The notes below the pieces were generated by a model. That model was not told the origin of the DNA, did no database searches, and saw only the letters and a program-made list of their open reading frames with translations. Of a DNA stretch of 64,000 bases, positions 1 through 58,066 are shown piece after piece (position 1 is the stretch's first letter; every line of letters starts with the position of its first letter). The translations under genes and the position numbers were made by a program. Source of the DNA: Prevotella sp. (GTDB lineage Bacteria; Bacteroidota; Bacteroidia; Bacteroidales; Bacteroidaceae); contig JAFZIZ010000013.1 of NCBI GenBank assembly GCA_017554145.1, positions 1 through 64,000 on the forward strand, read 5' to 3'.

Positions 1-2
1 CA

Positions 3-30
3 GATGATAGATGATAGATGATAGATGATA
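3..30. repeat. Heptamer array, GATGATA type, 4 perfect units
   Basis: Four exact GATGATA copies at the window start, downstream of the 87-971 gene. Confidence 0.93.
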
Positions 31-50
31 ATTACTTCAAGTGCTCGTCT

Positions 51-85
51 AACTGTTATCTATTAATTTTTATCTATTAACTACC
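51..85. repeat. Heptamer array, ATCTATT type, 5 units
   Basis: AACTGTT, ATCTATT, AATTTTT, ATCTATT and AACTACC in register, ending one base before the stop codon of the fimbrial lipoprotein gene. Confidence 0.8.
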
Positions 86-86
86 A

Positions 87-971
87 TTAGAAGTTTTGGT
101 TATAGTCGGGGAGCCAGTCAGTGTCAAGGAGGAAATTGGTGGAGGCACTGGTGGTGTAGAGAGTGCCTGAGAGTTTCGTGGTGCGATTACGCTTGAAGGG
201 AACGTCGCTAACGACCTTATGGGAGATGGAGGTTCCCTGAGCGTCGAGGACATCGATGGTCACATTCATGGTCTGCTCGTCTTCAGCGAGGAAGACATAA
301 CCAACGGAACTGGAGGTGGCACCTACGGCTGTACCGATATTCACCGTACTAGTGGAGCCTGTATTGATGGTGGCGAGACCTGTGGTCGGGCTGAAGGCTT
401 TGCCTCCAGCAGAGAAGGTCATGCGCACCTTGCTGGCATTGGCCGTCTTGACATCGGTGGAGAGTACCATCAACTTGGTCATTATGCGGTTGAGGGTCGC
501 ACTGAGTTCTACCGCATTAGTGCTCGTGATGTTCACCTCTTCCACACCTGCGAAGGTCTCACGCACATCACCTGTGGTGAATGCTGCTTGGTTGGGACTG
601 GTGAGGACGAGAGCATCATCGTCGTATAATGTGTAACCCAGAACTACCATCGTGTAACTGCCCATCGGCAATTCGAGACTAAAGTCTCCAAAGGTGGTAT
701 ATGTTGTTGCGTCAGTACGCAGCTGAGTAGTCTTATATTGTTCTGTACCTGTTCCCGTGTAGAAAGCCAGTGTAATGGCTTTTACGCCGGTATAGTGTTC
801 TACTGTCTCCTGCGCTCTGGCGCTTGCATACTCCTCCATGGAGATGGAGAAGTCGTTGACATGGACTGTTACAGGTACTAATTGCTCGTTATCGTTATCC
901 AGCATCTCTTTATCTTTGCTGCAGCTTGCTGCAAGCAGGGTTAAGCCTATTGAAAATAAATATTTTTTCAT
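87..971 (-). CDS. FimB/Mfa2-like fimbrial lipoprotein
   Basis: Probable surface lipoprotein of the FimB/Mfa2 fimbrial-subunit type (294 aa). An N-terminal signal segment ends in a lipobox with the lipidated Cys at residue 17 (LLAASC). The rest is beta-rich, with a C-terminal VPFKRNRTTKLSG stretch typical of this family, where a short strand precedes a conserved 'KRN.xT' turn. It follows a paralogous gene (996-1844) by 24 bp, so the two are probably cotranscribed. Family members anchor or regulate the length of fimbriae in Bacteroidales; here the role is inferred only from family resemblance. No fimbrillin (FimA/Mfa1) gene is visible inside the window. Confidence 0.7.
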   Translation of the reverse strand: MKKYLFSIGLTLLAASCSKDKEMLDNDNEQLVPVTVHVNDFSISMEEYASARAQETVEHYTGVKAITLAFYTGTGTEQYKTTQLRTDATTYTTFGDFSLELPMGSYTMVVLGYTLYDDDALVLTSPNQAAFTTGDVRETFAGVEEVNITSTNAVELSATLNRIMTKLMVLSTDVKTANASKVRMTFSAGGKAFSPTTGLATINTGSTSTVNIGTAVGATSSSVGYVFLAEDEQTMNVTIDVLDAQGTSISHKVVSDVPFKRNRTTKLSGTLYTTSASTNFLLDTDWLPDYNQNF

Positions 972-976
972 TTTTA

Positions 977-997
977 TAAAGTTTAAAGTTGATAATT
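977..997. repeat. Heptamer array, TAAAGTT type, 3 units
   Basis: TAAAGTT twice and GATAATT, between the two fimbrial lipoprotein genes. It overlaps the stop codon of the upstream gene. Confidence 0.75.
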
Positions 998-3209: not shown

Positions 3210-3244
3210 CGTTATTTCTCTTTGCTTTATGTATTCACACAACA

Positions 3245-5695: not shown

Positions 5696-5702
5696 ATCTG
5701 TC

Positions 5703-5737
5703 TTTAACCTTTAACCTCTAACCTTTAACCTTTATAC
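5703..5737. repeat. Heptamer array, TTTAACC type, 5 units
   Basis: Five 7-bp units in register (TTTAACC, with one TCTAACC and one TTTATAC). It fills the upxY/export-gene junction and contains the upxY stop codon (5732-5734). Confidence 0.9.
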
Positions 5738-6295: not shown

Positions 6296-6330
6296 ATAAT
6301 TGATAATGGATAATGGACAATGGATAATTT
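6296..6330. repeat. Heptamer array, ATAATGG type, 5 units, next to the upxY promoter
   Basis: Units ATAATTG, ATAATGG twice, ACAATGG and ATAATTT in strict 7-bp register. Confidence 0.9.
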
Positions 6331-6352
6331 TTATTTTATTACCCATTTATTT

Positions 6353-9300
6353 CTATTTTATGGATTGGAGGAGGGTCAAAGCGGCTTCAACAGTAGGGAT
6401 GTTGGAGATAAGGAGAGAGCGCCTGCCATGGAGGTCACGGAACTGGCAACGACGAGGATGTTCAGCAACAAAACGAAGGATGGCATCAAAGGCAGGACTT
6501 TGATAAAAGGGACTATCGGGATTGGATACAAACACCAACGTCATACGTCCTTGTTTCAACATGATTTTCTCACAACCTAACTGGCCTGCCACCCGTCGTA
6601 GAGGTACTACACGCATGAGTTCCTCACCCACCTGAGGTACAGGGCCAAAGCGATCAATGAGTCGTGTGCGATAAGCTGCCAATTGCTCATCGGTATGCAG
6701 ATTGTCCAATTCCCGATAGAGCAACATCCGCTCACTGTCAGACGGTACATACTGGTCGGGGAAGTAAAGCTCAAGATCTGACTCCAAAGTGGAGTCGGTA
6801 AAGGTTAAAGGTGAATGGTTAAAGGTTAAAGATTGGGAGCCATAATCCGTGAACCGTGAACCCGTTGATTCCTCATTCCTTAGTTCCTGCATCGCTTGGT
6901 TGAGAATCTTTTGGTAGGTCTCATAACCGAGGTCGGCTATAAAACCAGACTGTTCGGCACCAAGGAGATTACCAGCACCACGAATATCCAAGTCCTGCAT
7001 GGCTATCTGAATACCACTACCCAAGTCGCTGAAGTTCTCCAAAGCCTCTAAGCGACGGCGACTCTCTTGTGGAAGGTCGGCAAGAGGCGGAGCCAAGAGA
7101 TAACAGAATGCCTTGCGGTTGCTACGTCCTACCCTTCCTCGCATCTGATGCAGGTCAGAGAGTCCGAAATGATCAGCCCCATTGATGATAATCGTATTGG
7201 CATTAGGAATATCGATACCATTCTCTATGATAGTTGTAGAAAGCAACACGTCATAATCGTAATTGACAAAATCGAAGATGACCTCTTCGAGTTCATCGGG
7301 CTTCATCTGACCATGCCCCACTGCCACACGAGCCTCCGGCACATAATGATGGATCATATCTGCAATGCGTCGCAAGTCATTGATACGGGGATTGACAAAA
7401 AACACCTGTCCATTACGTGACATCTCGAAATTGATAGCCTCAGTGATAATCTCCGGTCCGAAGGTATGTATCTCTGTATGAATGGGATAGCGGTTAGGCG
7501 GTGGTGTCTGGATGATACTCAGATCACGGGCTCCCAACAGGGAGAACTGGAGGGTACGGGGAATAGGTGTTGCCGTCAATGTCAACGTATCGACACTGGT
7601 CTTCATCTGACGGAGTTTCTCCTTGGTAGAGACACCAAATTTCTGTTCCTCATCGATAATCAGAAGACCGAGGTCTTTAAATTTCACCGTCTTACCAATG
7701 AGTTTATGGGTACCAATCAGAATGTCTATCTTTCCTTCAGCGAGGTCGCTCAGCAATTCTTTAGTCTGTTTGGCAGTACGGGCACGAGTAAGATAATCCA
7801 CTCGTACGGGCAGGTTTTTCAGTCGACTCTTAAATGTCTGGTAATGCTGGTAGGCAAGGACGGTGGTAGGCACTAATACTGCTACCTGTTTGGAATCACA
7901 TGCCGCCTTGAAAGCCGCACGTACTGCTACTTCCGTCTTTCCGAAGCCCACATCACCACATACCAGGCGGTCCATCGGACGAGCCTGTTCCATGTCTGCC
8001 TTTACGTCATTGGTGGCTTTCAACTGGTCGGGCGTATCTTCATAGAGGAATGATGCCTCCAACTCCTGTTGCAGAAAGCTATCAGCACTGAATGCAAAAC
8101 CCTTCTCCCGTTTTCTGGCAGCATAGAGTTTGATAAGGTCACGGGCAATATCCTTGATTTTGGACTTCGTACGCTCCTTCATCCGCTCCCACTGACCTGT
8201 ACCTAACTGGGACAGACGAGGGGGCTCCCCATTATCCTGTGCCTTGTATTTGCTGACCTTATAAAGTGAATGAATGGATACATAGATGGCACCGCCTCCT
8301 TGGTAGATGATCTTAATCATTTCCTGGTAGTGAGGGGTTTTCGTTGAGCGGTTAGCGGTTAGCGATTGGCTATTAGCGATAGGCATTCTAACCAAGCCTC
8401 CGAACTTACCGATACCATGATCTACATGAACCACATAGTCGCCTATCTCAAACTGTTGAATCTCCTTGAGGGTCAGGGCCACCTTACCACTACGTGCCTT
8501 ATCAGAACGAAGACTATACTTATGGAAACGATCAAAGATCTCATGGTCGGTGAAGATCCCTATTTTCAGGTCATGATCAAGGAAACCAGCGTGAAGGGAA
8601 GAGTCAATGTAGTTGACCGAATGTTGAATGTTGAGTGTTGAGTGTTGAGTGAGGATATCTTCCAAGCGTTGGAGTTGTTTTTTGCTATCAGCAAGGACGT
8701 AGAGATGGTAACCTTGGGACTGATAGTCAGAGAAGGTCTCACGAAGCAGATCGAACTGCTTGTGGAATAGGGGTTGTTGGGTGGTATGGAACTCCAACGT
8801 GACATTAGGTTTGGCAGAAGGGCGATGACCAAACTCCACCTTACGGAAAGGAGTCATCTCACTGGTGAACTGCATCCCATTGATTAAGGAAATATCTTGA
8901 CATTCTTGAAAGGTACGGTCAATCGCATCATGAACATACTGGAAGTCCTTGGCGATGATTAAAGTATGAGGTAAGAGGTAAGAAGTAAGAGGTAAGAGAC
9001 TGTCCTTTAACCTTTGTCCTTCGTCCTTTGACAACTCGGGGACGATACTGATTTGGTCACACCTATCGCGGGATAGCTGATCTTCCACCTCAAAGGTACG
9101 GATAGAATCAATGTCATCACCGAAAAAATCTATACGAAAAGGATACTCGCTACTGAAGCTATAGACATCAAGGATAGAGCCTCGCAAAGCAAATTGTCCA
9201 GGTTCATAGACATAATCTACTTCCTGAAATCCGAACTCCCGCAAAGTCTTCGTCACTTCGTCTGTCGCAATGGTCTGTCCCTGCTTTAACACCAATGTCT

Positions 9301-9760
9301 GTGCGTTCAATTGTGTCGGAGAGATGACTTGTTCAGCAAGGGCTTCAGGATAGGTGACGATAAAGGTTAAAGGTGAATGGTTAAAGGTTAAAGATTGAGA
9401 ATCATGAACTGTGAACCGTGAACCATGAATCAACGAAGTGAGGACTTCAGTACGAAGGATCTCTTGGGCGGCATCACGTTGGGCGTATTTGATGGAACGG
9501 CGGTAGGAAGAGGGGAAAAACAACACCTTTTCCACGCCTAGTATCTGTTTGAGGTCATGATAGAAATAACCGGCTTCCTCTTCGTCGTTTAAAATAATAA
9601 CGGTTAGCGAAAATCCTAATGAAGCGAAGAGCATGGGAGCAGAAGAGGCAACAAGTCCCTGGAGGAAAATCGTTTTCACCGATTTGTCCTCTATCGTTTT
9701 CCTGACGGTCTCCACCTGTGGAGCCATCGAGTACAGTTGCACTAACTCCTGTATCGTCAT
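6353..9760 (-). CDS. mfd: Transcription-repair coupling factor Mfd
   Basis: Mfd (1135 aa) removes RNA polymerase stalled at DNA lesions and recruits UvrA. Domain order is intact: the UvrB-like N-terminal part, a CarD-like RNA-polymerase-interaction domain near 440-500 (VVHVDHGIGKFGG), the superfamily 2 translocase with Walker A GDVGFGKTEVAV and Walker B IIDEEQ, a TRG-type motif region after helicase motif VI, and the C-terminal UvrA-binding-type domain. It overlaps the plsC stop by one base (TAATG). Unusually, five peptide loops are encoded by heptamer repeat arrays (residues about 108-133, 243-265, 369-380, 459-472 and 965-987); the fourth splits the polymerase-binding domain. The frame stays open throughout. 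Confidence 0.95.
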   Translation of the reverse strand: MTIQELVQLYSMAPQVETVRKTIEDKSVKTIFLQGLVASSAPMLFASLGFSLTVIILNDEEEAGYFYHDLKQILGVEKVLFFPSSYRRSIKYAQRDAAQEILRTEVLTSLIHGSRFTVHDSQSLTFNHSPLTFIVTYPEALAEQVISPTQLNAQTLVLKQGQTIATDEVTKTLREFGFQEVDYVYEPGQFALRGSILDVYSFSSEYPFRIDFFGDDIDSIRTFEVEDQLSRDRCDQISIVPELSKDEGQRLKDSLLPLTSYLLPHTLIIAKDFQYVHDAIDRTFQECQDISLINGMQFTSEMTPFRKVEFGHRPSAKPNVTLEFHTTQQPLFHKQFDLLRETFSDYQSQGYHLYVLADSKKQLQRLEDILTQHSTLNIQHSVNYIDSSLHAGFLDHDLKIGIFTDHEIFDRFHKYSLRSDKARSGKVALTLKEIQQFEIGDYVVHVDHGIGKFGGLVRMPIANSQSLTANRSTKTPHYQEMIKIIYQGGGAIYVSIHSLYKVSKYKAQDNGEPPRLSQLGTGQWERMKERTKSKIKDIARDLIKLYAARKREKGFAFSADSFLQQELEASFLYEDTPDQLKATNDVKADMEQARPMDRLVCGDVGFGKTEVAVRAAFKAACDSKQVAVLVPTTVLAYQHYQTFKSRLKNLPVRVDYLTRARTAKQTKELLSDLAEGKIDILIGTHKLIGKTVKFKDLGLLIIDEEQKFGVSTKEKLRQMKTSVDTLTLTATPIPRTLQFSLLGARDLSIIQTPPPNRYPIHTEIHTFGPEIITEAINFEMSRNGQVFFVNPRINDLRRIADMIHHYVPEARVAVGHGQMKPDELEEVIFDFVNYDYDVLLSTTIIENGIDIPNANTIIINGADHFGLSDLHQMRGRVGRSNRKAFCYLLAPPLADLPQESRRRLEALENFSDLGSGIQIAMQDLDIRGAGNLLGAEQSGFIADLGYETYQKILNQAMQELRNEESTGSRFTDYGSQSLTFNHSPLTFTDSTLESDLELYFPDQYVPSDSERMLLYRELDNLHTDEQLAAYRTRLIDRFGPVPQVGEELMRVVPLRRVAGQLGCEKIMLKQGRMTLVFVSNPDSPFYQSPAFDAILRFVAEHPRRCQFRDLHGRRSLLISNIPTVEAALTLLQSIK
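6798..6867. repeat. Composite heptamer array inside mfd, 10 units
   Basis: Units of TTAAAGG/TGAATGG type pass, without leaving register, into CCGTGAA type. It encodes a peptide containing SQSLTFNHSPLTF (mfd residues about 965-987). The unit order matches the array at 9360-9436. Confidence 0.92.
8343..8384. repeat. Heptamer array inside mfd, GGTTAGC type, 6 units
   Basis: 42 bp, adding about 14 residues (ANSQSLTANRS) within the CarD-like RNA-polymerase-interaction domain. Confidence 0.9.
8621..8655. repeat. Heptamer array inside mfd, ATGTTGA/GTGTTGA type, 5 units
   Basis: Encodes the TQHSTLNIQHS peptide at mfd residues about 369-380. Confidence 0.9.
8964..9033. repeat. Composite heptamer array inside mfd, 10 units
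   Basis: Five GTAAGAG-type units are followed in unbroken 7-bp register by TTTAACC/TTTGTCC-type units. It encodes mfd residues about 243-265 (LLPLTSYLLPHT). Confidence 0.92.
9360..9436. repeat. Composite heptamer array inside mfd, 11 units
   Basis: TTAAAGG-type units, then a TTGAGAA spacer unit, then TCATGAA/CCGTGAA/CCATGAA units. It encodes mfd residues about 108-133. Confidence 0.93.
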
Positions 9761-10527: not shown

Positions 10528-10533
10528 TTCATC

Positions 10534-10561
10534 TTTAACCTTTAAACTTTAACCTTTATCT
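10534..10561. repeat. Heptamer array, TTTAACC type, 4 units, GT2/plsC junction
   Basis: Supplies the last codons and the stop (10542-10544) of the GT2 gene, whose C-terminus KIKVKV is pure repeat translation. Confidence 0.9.
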
Positions 10562-11318: not shown

Positions 11319-11346
11319 TTTAGAGTTTAGAGATTATAGATTAGAG
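11319..11346. repeat. Heptamer array, TTTAGAG type, 4 units, next to a promoter
   Basis: Two TTTAGAG units, then ATTATAG and ATTAGAG, in register, between the metallophosphoesterase stop and the GT2 promoter. Confidence 0.88.
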
Positions 11347-11351
11347 TTTTT

Positions 11352-12332
11352 TTATTTTTTTGCACGTAAAGTGATGACGACTATTTCGCCAGGGAGGGAA
11401 AGACGGAAGGGAATGAGAGCACCAACGCCAGTGGATACATAGAGGGCACGAGGACCTTCATAGACCATTCCTTCATAGTCTTGATAACTCAAGGCGGAAG
11501 GTGACCAACCGAAGAGAGAGACCTGACCACCATGTGTGTGACCAGAGAGGGTCAACTGGGCATTACACTCTGGCAGAATCTTCTCACGCCATGCAGTGGG
11601 ATCATGTTGGAGCATGATAATGAATGTGGAATGTGGAGTGTGGAATGAGGAATGAGATTGGCTAAGGGTCTTTTTGACATCGCCACGACGAGGCATGCGC
11701 TTGACGACACCCCAATTTTCCATACCCGCAATGACGATGGAGTCACTATCGCGACGGATGATGCGATGCTCATTCATCAGAAGCGTCCAGCCAGTCTGTC
11801 GGAACAACGCTTGCGTTTTCGCACAGTTAGCTTCCTTTGTCAGCGAGTCATAGGGTTGATAAACGGCATAGTCATGATTACCCAACACGGCATAGACTCC
11901 ATCTGGAGCCTTCAGTCGCTGTAACTGTGGGAGATGATCTATCAACTCCTCAGGATAGACATTCTGCAAGTCACCCGTAAATACAATCATATCGGGGTGT
12001 AATGCCAAGATACTGTCTACTGCACGCTGCAACAGCCATGCCCGTCTACCCGTCATCGTACCCACATGAGCATCCGAGAACTGGACAATGCGATAACCAT
12101 CAAAAGCCTTGGGGAGGTCCTTGCTCGTAAATTCAACGGTATGTACCTCCATCTGTTCGTAGCCCACTAACATGCCATAGGCGGCAAACAACATCAGGAG
12201 CAGAGCAACAGCAATGCCGACTTTTTTGCCCCAACGACGAGGTAACAGCCAACGACACAGGAAGAATACCACCAAGGGAACGATGACGAATGCCATCAAC
12301 AGGAAGAAAGGTACAGCGTAACGAGCAATCAT
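11352..12332 (-). CDS. Membrane-anchored calcineurin-like metallophosphoesterase
   Basis: YkuE/YaeI-type metallophosphoesterase (326 aa). Two N-terminal transmembrane helices (about 5-28 and 36-54) tether it to the inner membrane. The dinuclear metal motifs are all present: SDAHVG, GDLQN, GNHD and GHTHGG. Relatives hydrolyse phosphodiester bonds, some acting on lipid A or UDP-diacylglucosamine precursors; the substrate here is unknown. Residues about 225-238 (SHSSFHTPHSTFI) are translated from a heptamer array placed between the core strands, so they probably form an extra surface loop. Confidence 0.85.
   Translation of the reverse strand: MIARYAVPFFLLMAFVIVPLVVFFLCRWLLPRRWGKKVGIAVALLLMLFAAYGMLVGYEQMEVHTVEFTSKDLPKAFDGYRIVQFSDAHVGTMTGRRAWLLQRAVDSILALHPDMIVFTGDLQNVYPEELIDHLPQLQRLKAPDGVYAVLGNHDYAVYQPYDSLTKEANCAKTQALFRQTGWTLLMNEHRIIRRDSDSIVIAGMENWGVVKRMPRRGDVKKTLSQSHSSFHTPHSTFIIMLQHDPTAWREKILPECNAQLTLSGHTHGGQVSLFGWSPSALSYQDYEGMVYEGPRALYVSTGVGALIPFRLSLPGEIVVITLRAKK
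11617..11658. repeat. Heptamer array inside the metallophosphoesterase gene, ATGTGGA type, 6 units
   Basis: 42 bp, encoding a 14-residue His/Ser/Thr-rich loop; the length is a multiple of three. Confidence 0.92.
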
Positions 12333-12338: not shown

Positions 12339-12394
12339 TAAAGTTTAAAGTTTAAAGACGGGTGAAAGGTCGAAGGTTAGAGATGAGAGGCGAG
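12339..12394. repeat. Degenerate composite heptamer array, 8 units, downstream of the MetH-type gene
   Basis: Three TAAAGTT-type units drift in register into AGGTTAG/AGATGAG-type units. The last codons and the stop codon (12377-12379) of the MetH-type gene lie inside it. Confidence 0.75.
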
Positions 12395-13195
12395 GAATTT
12401 ACGAAGAACTTCGACGGGTAGGCCACGACGATGGGCGTAGTCTTGAAGTTGGTCTTCACCTATCTTTCCTAAGGAGAAATAATGCGCTTCAGGGAGGGCT
12501 ATCATCAAACCACTGACACTGGCATGTGGCTTCATCGCCCCACTCTCCGTGAGACGAATACCAATCTGTTTGAAATGGATGAGTTCATCCAATACGAAGT
12601 TCAGACTGGTGTCTGGCAATGAGGGATAACCCACGGCAGGACGGATGCCTTGAAACTTTTCGGCATGGAGTTCCTCCATGGTGAGGTGTTCATCGGGTGC
12701 ATAACCCCAATAGATTCGACGTACCTCCTCATGCATCTTCTCTGCTGCTGCCTCTGCCAAGCGGTCAGCTAAAAGTTGTACCGTCATCTTCATATACGCA
12801 TCCTTGTCGAAATCTTTCTCCAATCCATGATCCACAGAGGTAGCAAAAACTCCAATTTGATCATGTTCGGGATGAATGAAATCGGTGAGACAGAGACAGT
12901 CCCCCTGTTGCTGGCGCAAAAGTGGGATATGGCGGTTAAAGGTTAAAGACATTGAATCATGAACCATGAACCGTGAATCATGAACCGTGATAACGATATC
13001 GTCGTTATGACTGTGGGCAGCAAAAAGGTCGAAGAGGGCATAGACATGGTATTTGCCATCAAGTTGAGAGAGGATTTCCTCTGCCTCTGCCCTACTCTTT
13101 TGCTGTTGGGCAGCATCACGCAACTGCCACGCGTAATAGTAATACGCCCAGTTGATATAAGGTTGCAGGTCGTGTATCTCGTAGGTGAGTATCAT
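12377..13195 (-). CDS. Stand-alone MetH activation-domain protein
   Basis: Homologue of the C-terminal S-adenosylmethionine-binding activation domain of cobalamin-dependent methionine synthase (272 aa), which reductively reactivates oxidised cob(II)alamin. Diagnostic stretches are present: RPAVGYPSLPD, IGIRLTESGAMKPHASVSG and YFSLGKIGEDQLQDYAHRRG. The N-terminal catalytic domains of MetH are absent, so it must act in trans with a partner encoded elsewhere, or has another use. It starts in an ATGA overlap with the dihydroorotase gene. Residues about 68-86 (SRFMVHDSMSLTFNR) come from a heptamer array. Confidence 0.85.
   Translation of the reverse strand: MILTYEIHDLQPYINWAYYYYAWQLRDAAQQQKSRAEAEEILSQLDGKYHVYALFDLFAAHSHNDDIVITVHDSRFMVHDSMSLTFNRHIPLLRQQQGDCLCLTDFIHPEHDQIGVFATSVDHGLEKDFDKDAYMKMTVQLLADRLAEAAAEKMHEEVRRIYWGYAPDEHLTMEELHAEKFQGIRPAVGYPSLPDTSLNFVLDELIHFKQIGIRLTESGAMKPHASVSGLMIALPEAHYFSLGKIGEDQLQDYAHRRGLPVEVLRKFLASHL
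12936..12991. repeat. Composite heptamer array inside the MetH-type gene, 8 units
   Basis: Two TTAAAG(G/A) units, then CATTGAA and TCATGAA/CCATGAA/CCGTGAA units. The order of the two families is the same as in the two large mfd arrays. Confidence 0.92.
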
Positions 13196-13750: not shown

Positions 13751-13778
13751 CTGGTGAGTAGTGAGTGGTGAGTGGAGA
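13751..13778. repeat. Heptamer array at the pyrC frameshift, GTGGTGA type, 4 units
   Basis: 28 bp, not divisible by three. The reading frame needed on one side differs by one base from that on the other. Confidence 0.93.
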
Positions 13779-14382: not shown

Positions 14383-14438
14383 ATAGTTGAAAGTTGAGAG
14401 TTCTCTGAACTATTATCTATTATCTCTGAACTATCAAC
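14383..14438. repeat. Composite heptamer array inside pyrC, 8 units
   Basis: AAAGTTG-type units, then TCTGAAC, TATTATC (twice), TCTGAAC and TATCAAC. It encodes DSSEIIDNSSENSQLST near residues 31-49, just before the DHVHF metal site. Confidence 0.9.
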
Positions 14439-14535
14439 TATATCAACGATGTTGCCATCTTCGATGATGATAGAACCATCGAACGTCCGACCTTCATTGA
14501 CGATCGTTCCACCTTCGATGATTGTTCTCATGCAC

Positions 14536-16153: not shown

Positions 16154-16160
16154 AGAAAAA

Positions 16161-16188
16161 ATTATCAATTATCAATTATCCATTATCC
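16161..16188. repeat. Heptamer array, ATTATCA/ATTATCC type, 4 units, between divergent promoters
   Basis: It lies between the divIC and dnaX -7 elements, 7 and 10 bp from them. Confidence 0.9.
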
Positions 16189-16198
16189 ATTTTTTTTG

Positions 16199-19096: not shown

Positions 19097-19206
19097 CTAC
19101 TTTTAAACTAATCTGCAAGGAAAATTCTCAATTATTTTGCAAAATGATAGAAAAATAATTTATTTCCTTTCATTTTGCGCACCGAACTAATCATTAAAAG
19201 AATATA

Positions 19207-19234
19207 ATTATCAATTGTCAATTATCAATTATCA
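19207..19234. repeat. Heptamer array, ATTATCA type, 4 units, upstream of tRNA-Arg
   Basis: Three ATTATCA and one ATTGTCA; the array ends 11 bp before the TACCTTTG element at 19246. Confidence 0.9.
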
Positions 19235-19245
19235 ATTTAAAGTTG

Positions 19246-37745: not shown

Positions 37746-37773
37746 ATAATTGATAATTGATAATTGACAATTG
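37746..37773. repeat. Heptamer array, ATAATTG type, 4 units, next to the rplY promoter
   Basis: Three ATAATTG and one ACAATTG. Confidence 0.92.
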
Positions 37774-37823
37774 ATTTTTTTCAAAAATAGTGTGTTTTTC
37801 TTGGTTTTTTGCCCACTAATTTG

Positions 37824-38812: not shown

Positions 38813-38841
38813 AGGTTAAAGGTTAAACATTAAAAATTAAA
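38807..38841. repeat. Heptamer array, GGTTAAA type, 5 units, nusB/yajC junction
   Basis: Contains the nusB stop codon (38810-38812) and ends 8 bp before the yajC ATG. Confidence 0.88.
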
Positions 38842-38849: not shown

Positions 38850-39173
38850 ATGACACAAATGATTCTCGCTGCACAAGCCGCACAGGGCGGTAGCAGCATG
38901 ACCAGTTTTATTATTATGATGGTGGCTATCTTCGCCATCATGTACTTCTTTATGATTAAACCACAGCAGAAGCGTCAGAAGGAGATTCAGAATTTCCAGA
39001 ACTCTCTGCAGGAAGGTACTCCCGTTGTCACAGGTGGTGGTATCTATGGTACTGTAAAGAAGATTGACCTCGCTACAGGCGTTATCGAAGTAAAGATTGC
39101 CGATGGTGTAGTCATTAAGGTAGATAAGGGTTCTGTCTTCAAAGAGCCTGCCAGCGCGCCAGTGCAGAAGTAA
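38850..39173 (+). CDS. yajC: Preprotein translocase subunit YajC
   Basis: Small membrane protein (107 aa) with a single helix (about 18-36, SFIIMMVAIFAIMYFFMIKP) and the conserved cytoplasmic part PQQKRQKEIQNFQNSL and VVTGGGIYGTV. It associates with SecDF in the Sec translocon. SecD/SecF are not in the window. Confidence 0.93.
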   Translation: MTQMILAAQAAQGGSSMTSFIIMMVAIFAIMYFFMIKPQQKRQKEIQNFQNSLQEGTPVVTGGGIYGTVKKIDLATGVIEVKIADGVVIKVDKGSVFKEPASAPVQK

Positions 39174-39204
39174 TTAAGAAGTAAGATGTAAGAGGTCAGA
39201 AAGG
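39170..39204. repeat. Heptamer array, AGAAGTA/AGATGTA type, 5 units, yajC/ybbR junction
   Basis: It contains the yajC stop and reaches the GTG start of the YbbR gene. Confidence 0.75.
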
Positions 39205-46527: not shown

Positions 46528-46565
46528 TAACTATTATCTATCATCTATGAACTATCAACTAATCG
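46524..46565. repeat. Heptamer array, CTATCAA/CTATTAT type, 6 units, carrying a stop and a start codon
   Basis: It includes the reductase stop (46525-46527) and the lactonase ATG (46547), and codes the lactonase's first five residues. Confidence 0.9.
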
Positions 46566-49298: not shown

Positions 49299-50282
49299 CT
49301 AAAGTCCTTGCGCCAAGCGCTCAGCTTCAGCACGGGCAGGCTTGCCTGTGGCGGTCATCGGGATGTGGTCAACAAAGAGGATACGGCGGGGCTGCCAGTA
49401 ACGAGGGAGGACGCTGCGGCAGAGCGTTTGTATCGCAGGGATATCGGTGGATTCGGTGAGCAAGACGACCTGTTCGCCAAGGCTCGTATCCGGAACTTTG
49501 GTAATCATGAAAGGAGCAGCGAGATGGGGACGCAGCAGTCGCTCCACCTCCTCTATCTGTATCTTGATACCACCCGAGCAAATGACATTATCCTTTCTGC
49601 CAAGAATACGGAATTGGTGAGTGGTGAGTGCTGAGTGGTGAGTGGTAAGTGGCAAAAGTTCTGCGATATCGTTGGTGACCAGCGGACCGTCGTGGACGGC
49701 AGGGGCATCGATAACGAGACAGCCCTCATCGTTGAGCGAGACAGTGACGCCCTCGAAGGGAGTGTACCAGTCGCTACGCTCAGGACCATTCAGTCGACGC
49801 AGGGCGATATGCGACAATGTCTCCGTCATGCCGTAGGTACTCCACACGTAATTAGGAAAGTCTTTCAGCGCCTCCGCCAACTCATCGTTGATGGCTCCAC
49901 CGCCAATCAGCAAGTGGCGAATCTGGCGCAAGCGTTCAGGAGCCTGCTGCAAGAGATTCCAGACCTGAAGGGGAACCATCGCTGCCAAATCAACCGTCCC
50001 TTCCCACTCAGGACACCCCTTTGGCTCCACGCTCACCAACCGCATTCCGCAAGTCAGTGCCCTTACCACCATCATCTTGCCAGCAATATAGTCGAGGGGC
50101 ATGCAGAGCAGGGCGGTGTCTCCCTCATGAAGTCCAAGAAACTGACAGGTGATACGTGCCGAAGCCCCCATGCGTCGTTTCTCCACGAGCATCGGTTTCG
50201 GCTGTCCCGTCGACCCACTGGTATGCACCAATATCGTCGGACTCTCGTTATGCCATTCGGCTAAGAATTCCTCAACTGTCAA
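49299..50282 (-). CDS. menE: o-Succinylbenzoate-CoA ligase
   Basis: MenE (327 aa), an adenylating enzyme of menaquinone synthesis. It has the P-loop HTSGSTGQPKPM, WSTYGMTE, and a C-terminal GRKDNVICSGGIKIQ and TATGKPAR. It is shorter at the N-terminus than many homologues. The start is TTG inside a heptamer array, with an in-frame stop directly before it; no ATG is available. Residues about 209-222 (LTTHHSALTTH) come from another array, between the main and C-terminal domains. Last gene of the men operon. Confidence 0.85.
   Translation of the reverse strand: MTVEEFLAEWHNESPTILVHTSGSTGQPKPMLVEKRRMGASARITCQFLGLHEGDTALLCMPLDYIAGKMMVVRALTCGMRLVSVEPKGCPEWEGTVDLAAMVPLQVWNLLQQAPERLRQIRHLLIGGGAINDELAEALKDFPNYVWSTYGMTETLSHIALRRLNGPERSDWYTPFEGVTVSLNDEGCLVIDAPAVHDGPLVTNDIAELLPLTTHHSALTTHQFRILGRKDNVICSGGIKIQIEEVERLLRPHLAAPFMITKVPDTSLGEQVVLLTESTDIPAIQTLCRSVLPRYWQPRRILFVDHIPMTATGKPARAEAERLAQGL
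49614..49655. repeat. Heptamer array inside menE, GTGGTGA type, 6 units
   Basis: 42 bp, in frame, adding 14 residues just before the GRKD hinge motif. Confidence 0.93.
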
Positions 50283-50336
50283 CTATCAACTATTATCTAT
50301 TAACTATTAACTATTATCTCTTATCTATCAACTACC
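50274..50336. repeat. Heptamer array, AACTATT type, 9 units, at the menC/menE junction
   Basis: It contains the menC stop codon (50321-50323) and the menE TTG start (50282-50280). Confidence 0.93.
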
Positions 50337-51352
50337 CAAAGTCTGTCTCCTCGTATCTCTAAAGGCATCGGGATATTATCCGTAAAGAGTTGTCCCGTGC
50401 CCAAGCCCTGCGGCATACGGATATCAGGACCATAGATATCCGCCGTCAACTGCGCGATGGCATTCAGTCCGATGTTACTCTCCAAAGCAGAAGTAATCCA
50501 AGAACCGATGCCCATGTCACGGGCAATATCCACCCACTCTCTTACACCCATCATACCACCATGCAACGAAGGTTTGAGGATGATATAGCGGGGACGGATG
50601 ATATTCAATATCTGCCGCTTCTGATCGGGGTCGTTCACGCCAATGAGTTCCTCGTCCAAGGCAATGGGCAGCGGTGACTCCCGACAGAGTTCCGACATAT
50701 AACTCCACTGTCCTGCCTTGATAGGCTGTTCGATGGAATGCAGCGCATACTGCGACAGGAGTTCAAGTTTATAAAGTGCTTCTTCGAAGGGGAAAGCCCC
50801 GTTGGCATCCACGCGTAACTCAATCTCGTGATGGCTGTAACGACTGCGTATCTTCTTAATCAGTTCCAGTTCGGCATCGAAGTCGATGGCCCCAATCTTC
50901 AGTTTCACGCAATGGAAACCCTGCGCCAGTTTCTCTTCAATGCGCTGCTGCATCTCCTCGAAGGTCCCCATCCATACCAGTCCATTGATGGGGATGCCCA
51001 CTTCGCCACGAGAGAAAGGAGTGTCAAAAAGAAAGCCTCTTCCATCTTCCTTCTTACATCTTACATCCAATAACGCCGTTTCCAAACCGAAAAGCATCGA
51101 GGGATAGTCGCGCATCGCCTCGTAGTCGATCTCACCCGTCCGTTCCACCTCATCGCAGAAACGACGCAGTACCTCGGCATAGTTAGGAATATCATCGCAA
51201 CTGAGTTGGGGTAGCGGCGCACATTCTCCGTAGCCAACGGCTTCGCCGTCGGAAACCTTCACCAGCCAAAGCCTGCGAGTGGTATACACACCACGACTCG
51301 TACCTGCCGGCTGTTTGAAATGAAGCAAACGCTCCTCGACATCTATTCTCAT
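50321..51352 (-). CDS. menC: o-Succinylbenzoate synthase
   Basis: MenC (343 aa), enolase superfamily. N-terminal cap domain, then the barrel with VKLKIGA (catalytic Lys), RVDANGAF (Asp ligand), [15 protein letters not shown] and the second Lys in ILKPSLHGG. It dehydrates SHCHC. Residues about 95-104 (CKKEDGRG) are encoded by a heptamer array. It overlaps menB by ATGA. Confidence 0.92.
51040..51067. repeat. Heptamer array inside menC, TTACATC type, 4 units
   Basis: Units TTCCATC, TTCCTTC, and TTACATC twice, in frame. Confidence 0.8.
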
Positions 51353-52164
51353 GGAATCTTCGGATATTGTTCGAAGTCAGGTTTACGTTTCTCTAAGAAC
51401 GCCTTACCGCCCTCCTGAGCCTCATCCAAGAAGTAATAAAGCATCGTGGCATCACCAGCGAGTTGCTGAATACCAGCCTGTCCGTCGAGTTCGGCATTCA
51501 GTCCGGCTTTGATCATGCGCAGGGCGATGGGCGAACGCTCCATCATCTCCTCTGCCCAAGCCACACACTCGTCTTCCAACTGGTCGAAAGGCACCACCTT
51601 GTTTACCATACCCATCTCCAAAGCCTCCTTGGCAGAATACTGGCGACAAAGGAACCATATCTCACGTGCCTTCTTCTGTCCGACGATACGGGCGAGGTAA
51701 CTTGATCCGAAACCGGCATCGAACGAGCCGACCTTAGGACCCGTTTGTCCAAAGATAGCATTCTCAGAGGCTATCGTCAAGTCGCACACCAAGTGCAACA
51801 CATGACCGCCACCGATGGCATAACCGTTGACCATCGCAATGACGGGTTTTGGCAGTCGACGAATCTGCATCTGTACGTCAAGCACACTCAGACGGGGCAC
51901 ACCCTCATCATCAACATAACCGCCACGACCTTTCACGTGCATATCACCACCCGAACAGAACGCCTTGTCACCTGCTCCCGTGAGCAATACCACACGTATA
52001 TCCTGCATCTCACGGCAGGCTGCAAATGACTGACTCAGTTCCAACGTCGTCTTGGGCGTGAAGGCGTTACGATAACGCGGACGATTGATGGTTATCTTCG
52101 CAATACCGTTATACTTCTCGAAAAGTATCTCTTCGAAATCTCTTATTTTCTTCCACTCTCTCAT
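51349..52164 (-). CDS. menB: 1,4-Dihydroxy-2-naphthoyl-CoA synthase
   Basis: MenB (271 aa), crotonase family. Oxyanion-hole stretches [17 protein letters not shown] and [18 protein letters not shown], and the [21 protein letters not shown]-type region are present. It closes the second naphthoquinone ring. Located between menD and menC. Confidence 0.95.
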
Positions 52165-52165
52165 A

Positions 52166-52193
52166 TCTATTATCTTTAACCTTTAACCTTTAA
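52166..52193. repeat. Heptamer array, CCTTTAA type, 4 units, at the menD/menB junction
   Basis: Supplies the menD C-terminus (LKVKG) and stop codon at 52176-52178, and ends 2 bp from the menB ATG. Confidence 0.88.
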
Positions 52194-53732
52194 ATAATAG
52201 TCCTTAAATACCCGTTCGTCCTCTGAAGCATCAGTAAACACTTCGAGGAGTACAGGACGATCACTTTCCATATTCAGCAGAAGATCCACACCCTTCTGCA
52301 TCTCTTCCATATTCTCTGCCTTTAGATACTTGACATCATTTTGCATACAGATGCCCTCGGCAGACGTGTGATGGGCGGCAGCAACAAATTGGTCACGTGC
52401 AGGACTCTGCTCTAAACCCTTCAATAGATTGAAGATGCCACCTTTACCATTGTTCAGCAACAAGATGCGGAAGTTGCCTCGCAGGTTCTGATTCCACAGT
52501 GCGTTCTGGTCGTAGAAGAAACTCAGGTCACCGATAACACAGAACACCCTATTGTCAACAACACAAGAAAAGCCTGCTGCCGTTGACAAAGAACCGTCAA
52601 TGCCATTCACACCTCGATTGCAATAAACATAGTGCTTAGCATAGATATTCGCCAGACGGATAGAAGTACTATTGGCATAATGGATAATGAATGGTAAATG
52701 GTGAGTGGTGAGTGGTGAAAACTGAGTTTCAGAGTATTTCACAATAGCCATCTCAGAATAGGCGGGTGTATAATCTGCGGCATGCTGGCGAACCCGCATC
52801 AGCAACTCTTCCCACAATTGCACAAAGGGATGCGGCTGTTGTTCCAACATAAAACGAACTTGGTCGGCAAGTACTTCCCCATCGCCCTGCACCACATGCG
52901 TCAAATTCATGAACGTATCATTCACCTCGCCCGTCCAATTGACAGTCCATGTCTCTTTTGCTTTCCGCAGGAAGCGTTTCACCCGTTTGCTAACAATTGA
53001 GCCTCCAATATACAAAACAAAATCGGGTACATAACGCTCATCATCCTGTATCAGAAAAACAGCCTCATCCAAATTAGGATTCATCGGTTGACCACAAATT
53101 AACATCGGACGCTTTGACTGCATAAACTTCTGACATACATGACTCAGCGTATCCGATGGTGTGTCGGCAGGCAACAGTTCTATCTTTCGCTCCTTGGGGA
53201 GTTCGGCAACCGTATAATCAAACAATGGTTCACTGATAGGAACATTGATATGGACAGGAGCATGCCGAACGATTAACGCCTCATTGACAAGACGGTTGCA
53301 GTACCAACGGTTTTCGTTATCGTGCGGCTCTGGCAGTGAAACAGCTTTGCGTACAAAACAACCTAAGGCATCAGGTTGTGGAAGTGTCTGCCCATCCAAT
53401 TGGTCAATCCACTGTGGAGGACGATCGGCAGAGATGACGATAAGCGGTCGTTGCTGATAATAAGCCTCTGCCACGGCAGGAGCCAGATTCAGCAAGGCAG
53501 TACCACTGGTGACACATACCACAACAGGCTCATTCAACGCCTGTGTCATGCCCAAGGCATAGAAACCCGCACTGCGTTCGTCGGTCACAGGATAGCATTG
53601 AATTTCCTTACACTCATTGAGGTTATGCACAATGGGTGAATTCCTACTTCCCGGACATACCACTGCATGACGCACTCCGTGAGCCACTAATAGCGAGGTC
53701 AGTATGTTGACGTTTTCCTTATTGCTATACAT
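52176..53732 (-). CDS. menD: SEPHCHC synthase
   Basis: MenD (518 aa), thiamine-diphosphate enzyme that joins isochorismate and 2-oxoglutarate. Motifs: [13 protein letters not shown] at the N-terminus, [25 protein letters not shown] and the ThDP-binding [12 protein letters not shown]. Residues about 338-351 ([11 protein letters not shown]) derive from a heptamer array between domains. It overlaps menF by 8 bp. Confidence 0.93.
52678..52719. repeat. Heptamer array inside menD, TGGTGAG/TAATGAA type, 6 units
   Basis: 42 bp, in frame; two unit families are joined in register. Confidence 0.92.
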
Positions 53733-54738
53733 TATATATTATATTACGCATGGTGTCTAACTTAATTTCCGTCTCCTGCCATTCCTGTTCCTCCTGACTG
53801 TCTTTCAAGATACCACCACCTGCATAGAGGCGATAATGGTCTTCAAAGATCTGCATACAGCGAAGCGTTACAAACAGATTGGTTTGCTGTTCCACGAATA
53901 ACGGACCCATAAAACCGCTATAGTACGAGCGGTCATGATGCTCATACTGCAAGATAAAACGGAAAGCCTCCTGCTTCGGTAATCCACAAACAGCAGGTGT
54001 TGGATGGAAAGCCTGCAAGATATCGCCAATAGGGGCATGGTCAGGCAGGATAAAATGGAAGTCGCTTCTAAGATGAGCAAGATGTCCGGCACGAACCGTC
54101 TTCGGACCTTCTTCCGTGAAACGACTGGTAAACTTCTCTAATTGTTCCGTCAGATAAGTAGCTACATAACGCTGTTCCTGTATATTCTTATCACTCCATC
54201 GAACTCCTTCTTCATAAGGCATCGTACCTGCCAAGGCTACTGTCTGCCATTGTTGTCCTTTACCTGCCAATAGAATCTCAGGTGTAGCAGTCAGCCACGT
54301 ACCACATTGGGGAGCAGAGACCAAACAGATAAACATACGGGGATAACGCTCACAAGCCCTTCGGAACAATTCCATAGGAGCCGTCTTCTCCTCTCGCCTG
54401 ACATCAATACTCCGTGAGAGCACCAACTTAGAGAACTCTCCACTGGTAAGATGTGCATGAAAGTTCAAGAAATCAACATGATAATTTGCACGGGTATCAA
54501 AAGAAAGGGTACCTTGAGGAAAAGAAGAAAGTTCTTGAAGAGTAACATCATGGGCAACACAGTCAGGATGTATTACCAGAATAGGACGTTCTCTGGACGG
54601 AGCAAAGGGTGCAACAACAAACCCTTGCTGCCCATTCAACTCCACACATGATGTCACTTCAAGCGGTTCACCCGATGTTTGCTCTATCAGTGTGCACTGC
54701 TGTTCATACGGCAAACGGAAAAGAGCGAAACTCGACAT
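53725..54738 (-). CDS. menF: Isochorismate synthase
   Basis: Chorismate-binding enzyme (337 aa) that makes isochorismate for menaquinone. Conserved C-terminal motifs include LAGTMP, PTPAVCGLPKQEA, and YSGFMGP, with ALAGT in the active site. Length is at the short end for MenF. First chorismate-consuming gene in the men operon. Confidence 0.9.
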   Translation of the reverse strand: MSSFALFRLPYEQQCTLIEQTSGEPLEVTSCVELNGQQGFVVAPFAPSRERPILVIHPDCVAHDVTLQELSSFPQGTLSFDTRANYHVDFLNFHAHLTSGEFSKLVLSRSIDVRREEKTAPMELFRRACERYPRMFICLVSAPQCGTWLTATPEILLAGKGQQWQTVALAGTMPYEEGVRWSDKNIQEQRYVATYLTEQLEKFTSRFTEEGPKTVRAGHLAHLRSDFHFILPDHAPIGDILQAFHPTPAVCGLPKQEAFRFILQYEHHDRSYYSGFMGPLFVEQQTNLFVTLRCMQIFEDHYRLYAGGGILKDSQEEQEWQETEIKLDTMRNIIYNV

Positions 54739-56131: not shown

Positions 56132-56164
56132 GATGTAAAATGAAACAAATTAGTATTAATGTGG

Positions 56165-56172
56165 CAAATATA
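56165..56172 (-). promoter_or_regulatory. TAnnTTTG promoter of the ROK-men operon
   Basis: Minus-strand TATATTTG, 33 bp upstream of the ROK ATG. Confidence 0.55.
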
Positions 56173-56288
56173 GCAAGTTTTCCTCATTCAACCAAACATT
56201 TGTCCGTTTTTTTAGCAATTATTTAACGTAGAGAGGAATACAAAATGAAAAAAATACCTAAAATAGCTATTGTGTCGGATAAAATGTG

Positions 56289-56296
56289 TAACTTTG
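56289..56296 (+). promoter_or_regulatory. TAnnTTTG promoter of lysS
   Basis: TAACTTTG followed by CATCC, about 30 bp before the ATG. Confidence 0.6.
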
Positions 56297-56326
56297 CATC
56301 CACAATTATATTTAGTATATACTTAT

Positions 56327-58057
56327 ATGAATGTATTAGAACTCAGTGAACAAGAGATTGGCAGACGTGAGAGTCTGCAAGAGTTGCGCCAGATGGGTAT
56401 TAACCCCTATCCCGCAGCCGAATATCCCACCAATGCCTTTTCTACCGACATCCGTGATTCGTTCCACGATGAAGACGAGCCACGTCAGGTGTGCATCGCC
56501 GGTCGTATGATGAGCCGTCGTGTGATGGGTAAGGCAAGTTTTGCAGAAATTCAGGATAGCAAAGGAAGAATTCAGGTTTATATTTCCCGTGACGACCTTT
56601 GTCCCGGTGAAGATAAAGATTTATACAATAAAGTTTTTAAGCGTCTGCTTGACATTGGAGATTTTATTGGTGTAAAAGGTTTTGTATTCCGTACACAGAC
56701 TGGAGAGATTTCCGTACATGCTCAGGAACTGACATTGCTTTCCAAGTCATTAAAGCCCCTGCCCATTGTAAAGTATAAGGACGGTGTGGCATACGATAAA
56801 TTCGATGACCCAGAGTTGCGTTATCGCCAACGTTATGTAGACCTCGTTGTGAATGAGGGAGTGAAAGATACTTTCCTACAGCGTGCTACCGTGATTCGCA
56901 CATTACGTAAAGTACTCGACGAGGCTGGTTATACCGAGGTGGAGACTCCTACCCTTCAGATGATTGCCGGTGGTGCATCAGCCCGTCCGTTTATCACCCA
57001 TTTCAATGCACTCGACCAAGACATGTATATGCGTATCGCTACCGAATTGTATCTGAAGCGCCTCATTGTAGGAGGTTTCGAAGGTGTCTATGAGATTGGC
57101 AAGAACTTCCGCAACGAAGGTATGGACCGCAACCACAACCCTGAGTTCACCTGTATGGAACTCTATGTGCAGTATAAGGACTACAACTGGATGATGTCGT
57201 TTACCGAGAAACTACTCGAGACTATCTGTATTGCCGTCAATGGTAAGCCTGAGCGCGAGATTGATGGTAATATCGTATCGTTCAAGGCGCCTTATCGCCG
57301 TCTGCCTATCCTAGAGGCTATTCAGGAGAAGACAGGTTTCGACTGTAATGGTAAGACAGAAGAGGAAATCCGTGCGTTCTGTCTCAGTAAAGGCATGGAA
57401 GTAGATGAGACGATGGGTAAGGGAAAACTCATTGATGAACTCTTCGGAGAGTTCTGTGAGGGTACCTTTATCCAACCTACCTTTATCACCGACTATCCTG
57501 TAGAGATGTCTCCCCTCACGAAGATGCATCGCTCTAAGCCCGGACTTACAGAACGTTTCGAACTGATGGTGAACGGTAAGGAGTTGGCCAATGCCTACTC
57601 TGAGCTCAACGATCCCATCGATCAAGAAGAGCGTTTCGTAGAGCAGATGAAGCTCGCTGACAAGGGCGATGACGAAGCAATGATCATCGATCAGGACTTC
57701 CTCCGTGCTCTTCAGTATGGTATGCCACCAACCTCTGGTATTGGTATCGGTATCGACCGTCTGGTGATGCTGATGACGGGTAAGACCTTCATCCAGGAAG
57801 TACTCTTCTTCCCACAGATGAAGCCCGAAAAGAAGATTCCTCAGTCTACCCCTGCTGAGTGGGCAGGGATTGGCGTAGCTGAAGAGTGGGTTCCCGTGCT
57901 CCGCAAGGCAGGCTTCAACCTCATTGCCAATATCAAGGAAGAGAAAGCGCAAGGCCTCCAACAGAAGATTGGTGACATTGTCAAAAAATACAAGTTGGAA
58001 ATGACCAAACCATCAGTTGATGAAATCGCTGCATGGATTGAAAAGGCTAATTGCTAA
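56327..58057 (+). CDS. lysS: Lysyl-tRNA synthetase (class II)
   Basis: LysRS (576 aa from the ATG at 56327). N-terminal OB fold (RQVCIAGRMMSRRVMGKASF), class II motif 2 (EGMDRNHNPEFTCMELY) and motif 3 (GIGIGIDRLVM). The last residues (KANC) and stop codon come from a three-unit heptamer array. An upstream in-frame ATG at 56270 precedes the promoter's -7 element and is rejected. Confidence 0.95.
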   Translation: MNVLELSEQEIGRRESLQELRQMGINPYPAAEYPTNAFSTDIRDSFHDEDEPRQVCIAGRMMSRRVMGKASFAEIQDSKGRIQVYISRDDLCPGEDKDLYNKVFKRLLDIGDFIGVKGFVFRTQTGEISVHAQELTLLSKSLKPLPIVKYKDGVAYDKFDDPELRYRQRYVDLVVNEGVKDTFLQRATVIRTLRKVLDEAGYTEVETPTLQMIAGGASARPFITHFNALDQDMYMRIATELYLKRLIVGGFEGVYEIGKNFRNEGMDRNHNPEFTCMELYVQYKDYNWMMSFTEKLLETICIAVNGKPEREIDGNIVSFKAPYRRLPILEAIQEKTGFDCNGKTEEEIRAFCLSKGMEVDETMGKGKLIDELFGEFCEGTFIQPTFITDYPVEMSPLTKMHRSKPGLTERFELMVNGKELANAYSELNDPIDQEERFVEQMKLADKGDDEAMIIDQDFLRALQYGMPPTSGIGIGIDRLVMLMTGKTFIQEVLFFPQMKPEKKIPQSTPAEWAGIGVAEEWVPVLRKAGFNLIANIKEEKAQGLQQKIGDIVKKYKLEMTKPSVDEIAAWIEKANC

Positions 58058-58066
58058 CTGCTAAAG
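58046..58066. repeat. Heptamer array, GCTAACT type, 3 units, lysS/gpsA junction
   Basis: GCTAATT, GCTAACT and GCTAAAG; it contains the lysS stop codon at 58055-58057. Confidence 0.8.

Follow-up and report, generated by a model that had tools for sequence, protein, structure and literature searches.

We found that a 64-kb stretch of DNA (46.5% G+C; hereafter the window, meaning the whole stretch analysed), part of the 2.8-Mb draft genome G000, carries a real and strong excess of short tandem arrays in which degenerate units repeat with a 7-bp period (heptad arrays). Exact lag-7 runs of at least 10 matches numbered 14 in the window against 0.05 per shuffle in 20 first-order Markov shuffles, and every other period from 2 to 30 gave 0 or 1 run, except 14 (15 runs) and 21 (11 runs). 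A mismatch-tolerant lag detector returned 35 arrays at threshold 9 (0.35 expected) and 31 at threshold 11 (0.00 expected; the strong arrays below); among periods 3–24, the best non-multiple of 7 reached 6 arrays (period 24, threshold 9). Most window arrays were recovered independently by Tandem Repeats Finder. A first-pass annotation of the window had counted 33 arrays in exact 7-bp register, spanning positions 1–58066 and lying near promoters, at gene junctions or inside genes; the count, the span and the three settings are essentially right, our own tally of the 31 strong arrays being 7 beside a −7 promoter box, 15 in open reading frames (ORFs, taken from a simple longest-first call with no trained gene finder), 6 straddling an ORF end and 3 intergenic. 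Their spread is uneven, with 16 of the 31 in the first 16 kb and none past 58064. The host is a Prevotella-like gut bacterium; the Mfd protein encoded in the window has its nearest named matches in bins of Prevotella or Prevotellaceae, many of rumen origin, the best at 82% identity.

The arrays occur genome-wide in G000 (completeness 83.5%, contamination estimate 5.13%). A 754-kb sample holds 131 strong arrays: 31 in the window, 79 in 597 kb chosen without regard to known arrays (four of its stretches continue contig C3, whose first 20 kb were known beforehand to be rich) and 21 in five loci picked for the AATTATC heptad pattern. The 597 kb outside the window correspond to ~8.5 arrays per 64 kb, making the window ~3.7-fold denser, and several 20-kb stretches have none. 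A chimeric bin as the cause of this uneven density was rejected, because the matches of one array family spread over 11 contigs (C3, C5, C7, C11, C14, C18, C20, C21, C31, C36 and C37); that family belongs to one genome.

Size is more constant than period, at ~33 bp and 4–5 units. Among 501 arrays in a 2.33-Mb sample, which includes the five picked loci, 343 have 4–5 units, 88 have 2–3 and 70 have at least 6, with arrays of 9–19 units at the extreme; the fall from 2 copies that we expected for slippage is thus replaced by a peak at 4–5. Ten of the 12 context/genome groups have a median length of 32–34 bp; the medians of the remaining two, with 3 arrays each, are 27 and 44 bp. Units of the purine/pyrimidine class RRRRRRY account for 122 of 408 (43 expected), and G and C occur together on one strand in 96 of 408 (~215 expected), a scarcity that disfavours hairpins but bears at most indirectly on palindromy. 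GGG or CCC appears in the unit consensus of 2 of 131 arrays in G000 and 18 of 277 in loci from 80 other species. In nine families, some overlapping, variation is concentrated at few unit positions (p from 4e-3 to 3e-20, the units within an array not being independent), as in NTTAAHC in G000 and NAGATAA in G022.

The arrays sit at characteristic places. In G000, 23 array sides lie 3–8 bp from a TAnnTTTG box, which we take to be the Bacteroidetes −7 element, against ~0.7 expected from the genome-average density of the box (its intergenic density may be higher), and several AATTATC arrays are placed between two divergent boxes. No box lies within 30 bp of 112 of the 131 strong arrays, and 50 of the 131, of the same length, are entirely inside ORFs; the share of arrays inside ORFs is 35–53%. 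The mfd gene of the window alone holds eight, at loops that, among the alignments listed, carry other insertions or are shorter in other species. One such Mfd loop contains, depending on the species, inverted heptad pairs, C-rich inverted repeats, 9-mers (9-bp palindromic repeats in some species) or only a short loop. In L034, L036, L061, L092, L097, L101 and other loci, the C-terminal Mfd loop bears long C-rich inverted repeats, CCCACCCCCA..CCCCTCCC with their complement, in frame; these inserts occupy the loop that holds inverted heptad pairs in other species.

An inverted partner was found within 300 bp for 42 of 247 arrays, against 7 with exchanged flanks (the test took the first 260 arrays of a shuffled list, of at most 60 bp, 13 being dropped for short flanks). 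Likewise, 15 of 42 neighbouring array pairs are inverted-related and 5 direct, compared with 56 and 69, respectively, of 959 distant pairs. Other repeats were noted as well. On contig C3 of G010 (e.g. L175:10353, L179:16565–16734 and L182:8182–8357), AACTCTC heptad arms lie, by eye, on either side of a centre made of 9-bp CTAG palindromic repeats; the junction is often GGACGGGT-like. The motif GTGTGGCGTTGC is present in ten copies at nine loci of different Prevotella-like species (L038, L043 with two, L048, L049, L050, L051, L052 with two, and L065), sometimes adjoining heptad arrays and often preceded by a short hairpin such as CTGACC..GGTCAG. At L198:14911–15259 (contig C16 of G022) and at many places in G023, two dispersed repeats of ~90–110 bp have matches in both orientations, and the sister genome contains dozens of these (40 of 417 candidates scored).

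We then compared orthologous sites in seven alignments from five pairs of species that are 88–96% alike, which yielded 104 array rows whose flanks are orthologous; where both species have an array, the site contributes two rows, and rows without aligned flanks were dropped (e.g. 8 of 39 in one comparison and 11 of 32 in another). Only 16 rows are identical, which excludes the idea, raised with the first-pass annotation, that identical arrays in all relatives reflect ordinary conservation; 40 rows are of equal and 64 of unequal length. The annotation had also proposed a mechanism working in 7-nt steps. Among the 64 nonzero length differences, 24 are multiples of 7, where chance would give 1 in 7; 7-nt steps are therefore gained or lost. 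The notion of a constant 7-nt ruler was not supported. The word itself differs by at least two bases in 19 of 79 rows with an array on both sides, and the flanks at word-replacement sites are 78–98% identical. In one case, a hairpin resembling a repetitive extragenic palindrome (REP) stands beside the array in one sister and is absent from the other; at site 141133, a hairpin lies next to an array, and an inverted copy of the heptad word extends its stem. Arrays thus change by whole units, differ in their inverted partners or are replaced by an unrelated word at the same site. The patches seem to be rewritten fast, since related species often carry different words at the same spots. That selection filters the coding arrays is supported on two counts. 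The reading frame is mostly kept, with multiples of 3 making up 22 of the 28 nonzero length differences in coding arrays but 6 of the 36 in noncoding ones. Stops are avoided: the coding strand is free of them in 39 of 52 coding arrays, the opposite strand in 16 of the 52.

Within a genome, words recur in dispersed families. Positions 9355–9435 of the window, an array segment of mfd, have 30 matches in G000. Three of these are the segment itself, its 67-bp copy elsewhere in mfd and a partial match; of the remaining 27, some of them in one locus, 20 span query positions 45–74, a core of ~34 bp. Two of the matches share flanks (flanks are common to L146 and L148), which are otherwise mutually unlike by eye among the matches listed. 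The ACCTTTA family, with 23 arrays (three in paralogous genes), has 18 that end exactly at CTTTA and 3 that end one A further. Among 571 within-family pairs of G000 arrays, 30% agree in their left and 25% in their right end phase, against 14% at random. Identical units make up 2.9% of pairs within G000 and 0.93% with other species, a ~threefold difference. A larger mobile element around the arrays was rejected as an explanation: among the ~60 matches listed, shared flanks occur mainly at promoter arrays, the mfd composite, paralogues and long arrays. An identity as tRNA or Rfam RNA was likewise discarded, with a single tRNA found at gathering scores.

Across the genus and the phylum, the distribution is patchy. 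Heptads are the commonest in a set of 80 Mfd loci (1.57 Mb, each from a different species), with 169 exact runs at period 7, 19 at period 8 and 40 at period 9. For a screen of genomes we used a purine/pyrimidine pattern of 28 bases, which recognises a single class of heptad arrays and scores overlapping matches within one array several times (the same pattern read backward belongs to the same cyclic class and is therefore uninformative as a control). Matches were obtained in 130 of 296 Bacteroidota genomes; within the genus, 119 of the 150 genomes screened have them, the counts running from 0 to 468. The pattern misses other array classes, because G003, with no pattern match, yielded 8 arrays in 60 kb; eight other zero-pattern genomes gave 1 array in 160 kb, and none was found in 50 kb each of Escherichia coli K-12 and one oral Prevotella. 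The samples taken from G400, G362 and G270 are unrepresentative, with 3, 3 and 0 heptad arrays in 47, 44 and 26 kb despite high whole-genome pattern counts; G270 counts as array-rich by its pattern count alone. G010, sampled over 400 kb in a comparison of replichores, has only 15 arrays. In the IMG/VR phage collection, 33 stretches match one heptad triple.

The first-pass annotation had described a constant period with a variable word, which holds within the window but not across the genus: seven is not fixed, and some sister species carry many 8-bp (octad) arrays. An octad pattern matches 33 of 60 genomes of the genus, with octad/heptad counts (overlapping matches again being scored several times) of 380/46 in G001, 85/39 in G348, 71/19 in G335 and 54/3 in G332; in 240 kb of G001, on octad-containing contigs, the detector gave 19 octad and 17 heptad arrays. 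At one orthologous site, ACTCATC heptads in G022 face inverted octad arrays in its sister G023, and at another, 9-bp units stand opposite 7-bp units (both by eye).

Positions, units and settings of the window arrays are collected in the table.

Table. Heptad arrays of the window (strand of ORFs in brackets)
Positions	Unit	Copies	Setting and remarks
2..30	AGATGAT	4.1	past stop of ORF 87-971(-)
5702..5734	CTTTAAC	4.7	fills gap between NusG-like ORF (stop 5732) and polysaccharide-export ORF (start 5695); member of dispersed ACCTTTA family
6296..6328	ATAATGG/ATAATTG	4.7	leftward TAnnTTTG box of NusG-like gene 6 bp away
6799..6834	TAAAGGT		in mfd, hypervariable loop
6847..6862	CCGTGAA		in mfd; with 6799-6834 forms composite copied at 9355-9435 (90% over 67 bp)
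8347..8380	AGCGATT		in mfd
8619..8651	GAATGTT/GAGTGTT		in mfd
8964..8998	GTAAGAG	5	in mfd
9004..9028	CCTTTGT-type		in mfd
9361..9396	TAAAGGT		in mfd, second copy
9405..9432	TGAACCG-type		in mfd, second copy
10533..10558	CTTTAAC	3.7	across glycosyltransferase/acyltransferase ORF junction
11319..11349	TTTAGAG		leftward TAnnTTTG box 8 bp away
11622..11656	GAATGTG		in metallophosphoesterase ORF
12339..12357	TAAAGTT	2.7	directly upstream of metallophosphoesterase start (12332)
12953..12990	TGAACCG/TGAATCA	5.4	in ORF of B12-dependent Met synthase activation domain; resembles part of mfd composite
13754..13778	GTGAGTG		in N-terminal amidohydrolase ORF
14410..14441	CTATTAT/CTATCAA		in amidohydrolase ORF
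16160..16191	AATTATC	4.6	between divergent -7 boxes, gaps 7 and 6 bp
19206..19237	AATTATC	4.6	8 bp from -7 box upstream of tRNA-Arg
21405..21431	ACTTTAA	3.9	fills gap between two (+) ORFs
26366..26399	GAAGAGG		in ORF 23689-26535(-)
26553..26587	AAAGTTT	5	leftward -7 box 4 bp away
28964..28997	ATAATTG	4.9	between divergent -7 boxes, gaps 6 and 4 bp
37746..37774	ATAATTG	4.1	leftward -7 box 6 bp away
38810..38841	TAAAGGT/TAAAAAT		junction of two (+) ORFs
39172..39200	AAGTAAG		ORF junction
46528..46561	AACTATC-type		right after stop of ORF 45577-46527
49615..49655	TGGTGAG	5.9	in ORF 49299-50282(-)
50272..50334	TCAACTA/TTATCTA	9	straddles ORF junction; longest in window
51038..51067	TCTTACA-type		in ORF 50321-51352(-)
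52164..52193	TATCTTT/AACCTTT		ORF junction
52677..52718	ATAATGG to GTGGTGA		in ORF 52176-53732(-)
53726..53744	TATATAT-type		ORF junction; weak, score 9.5, chance possible
58046..58064	GCTAACT		ORF junction; weak, score 9.5, chance possible

Three further observations concern genes of the window. The NusG-like ORF as listed starts upstream of both its array and its −7 promoter box (6296–6346), and its true start therefore probably lies further in. At 13192–14531, the amidohydrolase is split into two overlapping ORFs that match consecutive parts of a Pfam profile, a heptad array lies ~120 bp ahead of the ORF break, and a unit-step frameshift may have caused the split. An imperfect tandem repeat (CCACCA-type, 9 to 48 bp) occupies 41310–41430, in ORF 41280–44237(−).

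We tentatively read the arrays as dispersed, fast-turnover short tandem-repeat cassettes that short-patch copying would seed, slippage edits and selection filters, an account to which we give a probability a little below even. A genome would hold many families of its own, with cassettes of ~33 bp and 4–5 units, usually of 7 bp and in some sister species of 8, accumulating in weakly constrained DNA, namely next to −7 boxes or between two of them, in the gaps of operons and in sequence for hypervariable protein loops. In the seeding step, a nascent or single-stranded patch of ~30 nt with an existing word would serve as the template for a copy at another site. Short-patch template switching primed on microhomology is the probable route, and the word would thereby spread together with its ends and its pattern of variable positions. 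Fold-back copying would be the likely source of inverted partners. The later steps, which the comparisons support, are unit-step slippage, altering copy number by 7n, and selection, removing most out-of-frame or stop-bearing copies from genes; promoter arrays may in addition be co-opted as upstream sequence. In a bolder version, which we regard as unlikely and offer as speculation, array-rich Prevotella possess a dedicated or repurposed DNA-synthesis activity that writes ~30-nt patches of tandem words into unprotected DNA; the step would be 7 or 8 nt, depending on the lineage, and each step would include one or two loosely copied positions. If true, this would be a genome-wide patch writer, continually rewriting promoter-upstream DNA, operon gaps and protein loops.

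Several results weigh against seeding by patch copying followed by editing and filtering. No enzyme making the arrays was found in searches with Y1_Tnp, RVT_1 and PF00817, and no array birth was seen at strain level, the closest pair compared being ~95% identical. Only one family has clearly shared ends; the G000 end-phase signal is modest next to the 19% and 20% coincidence in 1707 pairs between genomes, and elsewhere the end phases are mixed (left/right 24%/24% of 136 pairs in G022, 9%/36% of 22 in G023 and 20%/0% of 5 in G010). Low-score, two-copy hits show a modest excess at period 7 (787, against 532–660 at periods 5, 8, 10, 11 and 13), and some arrays clearly lengthen through ordinary tandem expansion (from 4.4 to 14.4 units). 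Position-specific variation could equally reflect selection on a motif; inverted pairing has a smaller direct counterpart (a direct-repeat partner within 300 bp for 19 of 247 arrays). The coding filter also leaks: the frame is lost in 6 of the 28 coding length differences, and for 13 of the 52 coding arrays the unit consensus includes a stop.

Some of these points would be accommodated by replication slippage in situ with a preferred 7-nt step, the families being alike through base composition and selection. Such a step might arise because loops of at least 5 nt escape mismatch repair. Slippage agrees with the whole-unit differences between sister species, the arrays of 9–19 units and the two-copy excess, but leaves unexplained the copy-number peak, the 8-bp-rich sister species, the unrelated words that orthologous sites carry within flanks 78–98% identical, the shared ends of the ACCTTTA family and the concentration of variation at few unit positions, and as the whole account we find it rather unlikely. 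Distinctly unlikely, in our judgement, is that the arrays are selected regulatory elements, i.e. binding or spacing modules (upstream promoter elements, leader RNA) whose core positions are read by a protein or by RNA polymerase. The proximity to TAnnTTTG boxes and the unequal conservation of unit positions point that way; the majority of arrays far from any box, with unchanged length even inside ORFs, the frequent swapping of words between sisters and the many different cores within one genome point the other way.

Enzymatic spread was considered through protein families in 39 genomes. Y1_Tnp occurs in 16 of 19 array-rich genomes (at least 15 pattern matches) and in 6 of 20 with 0–1 matches (p=0.001); G000 itself has a Y1_Tnp protein, presumably RAYT-like, and the hairpin present in one sister only would fit a REP-like, single-strand transposase of the Y1/RAYT type that carried heptads along. 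Yet the genomes were hand-picked, so that the comparison is confounded by habitat and kinship, and the array-rich G376, G407 and G391 have no Y1_Tnp match; the family is associated with the trait but was rejected as a requirement, and we hold this route to be quite improbable. Very improbable is a telomerase-like or other reverse transcriptase that writes the repeats with a short RNA as its template. The ends shared with a 5-nt overlap, CTTTA(ACCTTTA)n, speak for it, but G000 (83.5% complete) has no RVT_1 match, and RVT_1 is found in 10 of 19 array-rich and 13 of 20 array-poor genomes (p=0.52), a presence that does not track array-richness and led us to discard it as the cause. A Y-family polymerase was set aside as well, PF00817 being present in 38 of the 39 genomes and undetected in G000 at that completeness, and therefore no marker of array-rich genomes. 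Finally, quadruplex-driven selection for four units, proposed for the heptads of Xanthomonas and Nostoc, finds a similar modal unit number in its favour (PMC4692102). With dozens of words and almost no G-tracts, this account of the four units does not carry over; it is contradicted for most arrays, and we give it a negligible probability. Taken together, the data speak against either quadruplexes or a universal 7-nt polymerase ruler as a complete explanation.

A bacterial heptad excess has been on record since 2007, as cited in PMC4692102, without an agreed mechanism. The array-rich, nearly array-free and octad-rich species now provide useful contrasts inside one genus. The arrays also supply new coding sequence quickly: in housekeeping proteins such as Mfd, heptad loops that keep the frame are swapped between sister species.

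Comparison with known systems delimits what is new. Mrazek et al (2007), as cited in PMC4679880 and PMC4692102, reported a heptanucleotide excess among prokaryotic long simple sequence repeats and proposed 7 nt as a polymerase contact length, the idea behind the preferred slippage step considered above; a size class, dispersed families or 8-bp sister species do not figure in what the citing passages relate. The arrays share with this class a 7-bp unit excess over shuffles and whole-unit copy-number changes between relatives, but not a copy number that falls from 2, as slippage would be expected to give. Cyanobacterial short tandemly repeated repetitive (STRR) heptanucleotides (Calothrix), which a passage of PMC4692102 mentions, comprise several heptad words per genome, as here. 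REP/RAYT elements are likewise dispersed and similar in size; REP-like inverted repeats share the Mfd loop in other species and one adjoins an array, the difference being the three array-rich genomes from which the transposase family is absent. TAACTGA direct repeats were described in Beggiatoaceae, Cyanobacteria and five Bacteroidetes including Paludibacter (MacGregor, 2015; PMC4679880). These are heptads of 2–6 units near start codons, accompanied, in some of these genomes, by other heptamer repeats within those intergenic regions, but they form a single-word system with few sets per Bacteroidetes genome, and in the genome studied there related heptamers seldom recur as repeats. AACTGAT, the canonical rotation of TAACTGA, is absent from the 54 words tallied in 754 kb of G000. 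The first-pass statement that no Bacteroidales equivalent is known thus needs amending for this single-word case, and stands for multi-word heptads, of which we found no description in Prevotella or Bacteroidales in a literature search whose coverage left out most subscription journals.

Another close likeness is with the GGGAATC, or (GGGANTN)n, heptads of Xanthomonas (Rehm et al, 2015; PMC4692102). There, each genome holds 183–186 dispersed arrays, the majority of four units, with positions 1–4 and 6 conserved and convergent close pairs in 70–75 cases; they lie near ORFs, vary in length and sequence between relatives, and were proposed to form quadruplexes. The Prevotella arrays resemble them in being dispersed, degenerate at specific positions, mostly of about four units, in part accompanied by inverted neighbours and variable between relatives. 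They differ from a system with one G-rich word per genome that is 89–93% intergenic, and add word replacement between sisters and 8-bp versions. New here are the dozens of words per genome, the few G-tracts, the heavy use inside genes, the replacement of words between sister species and the octad relatives.

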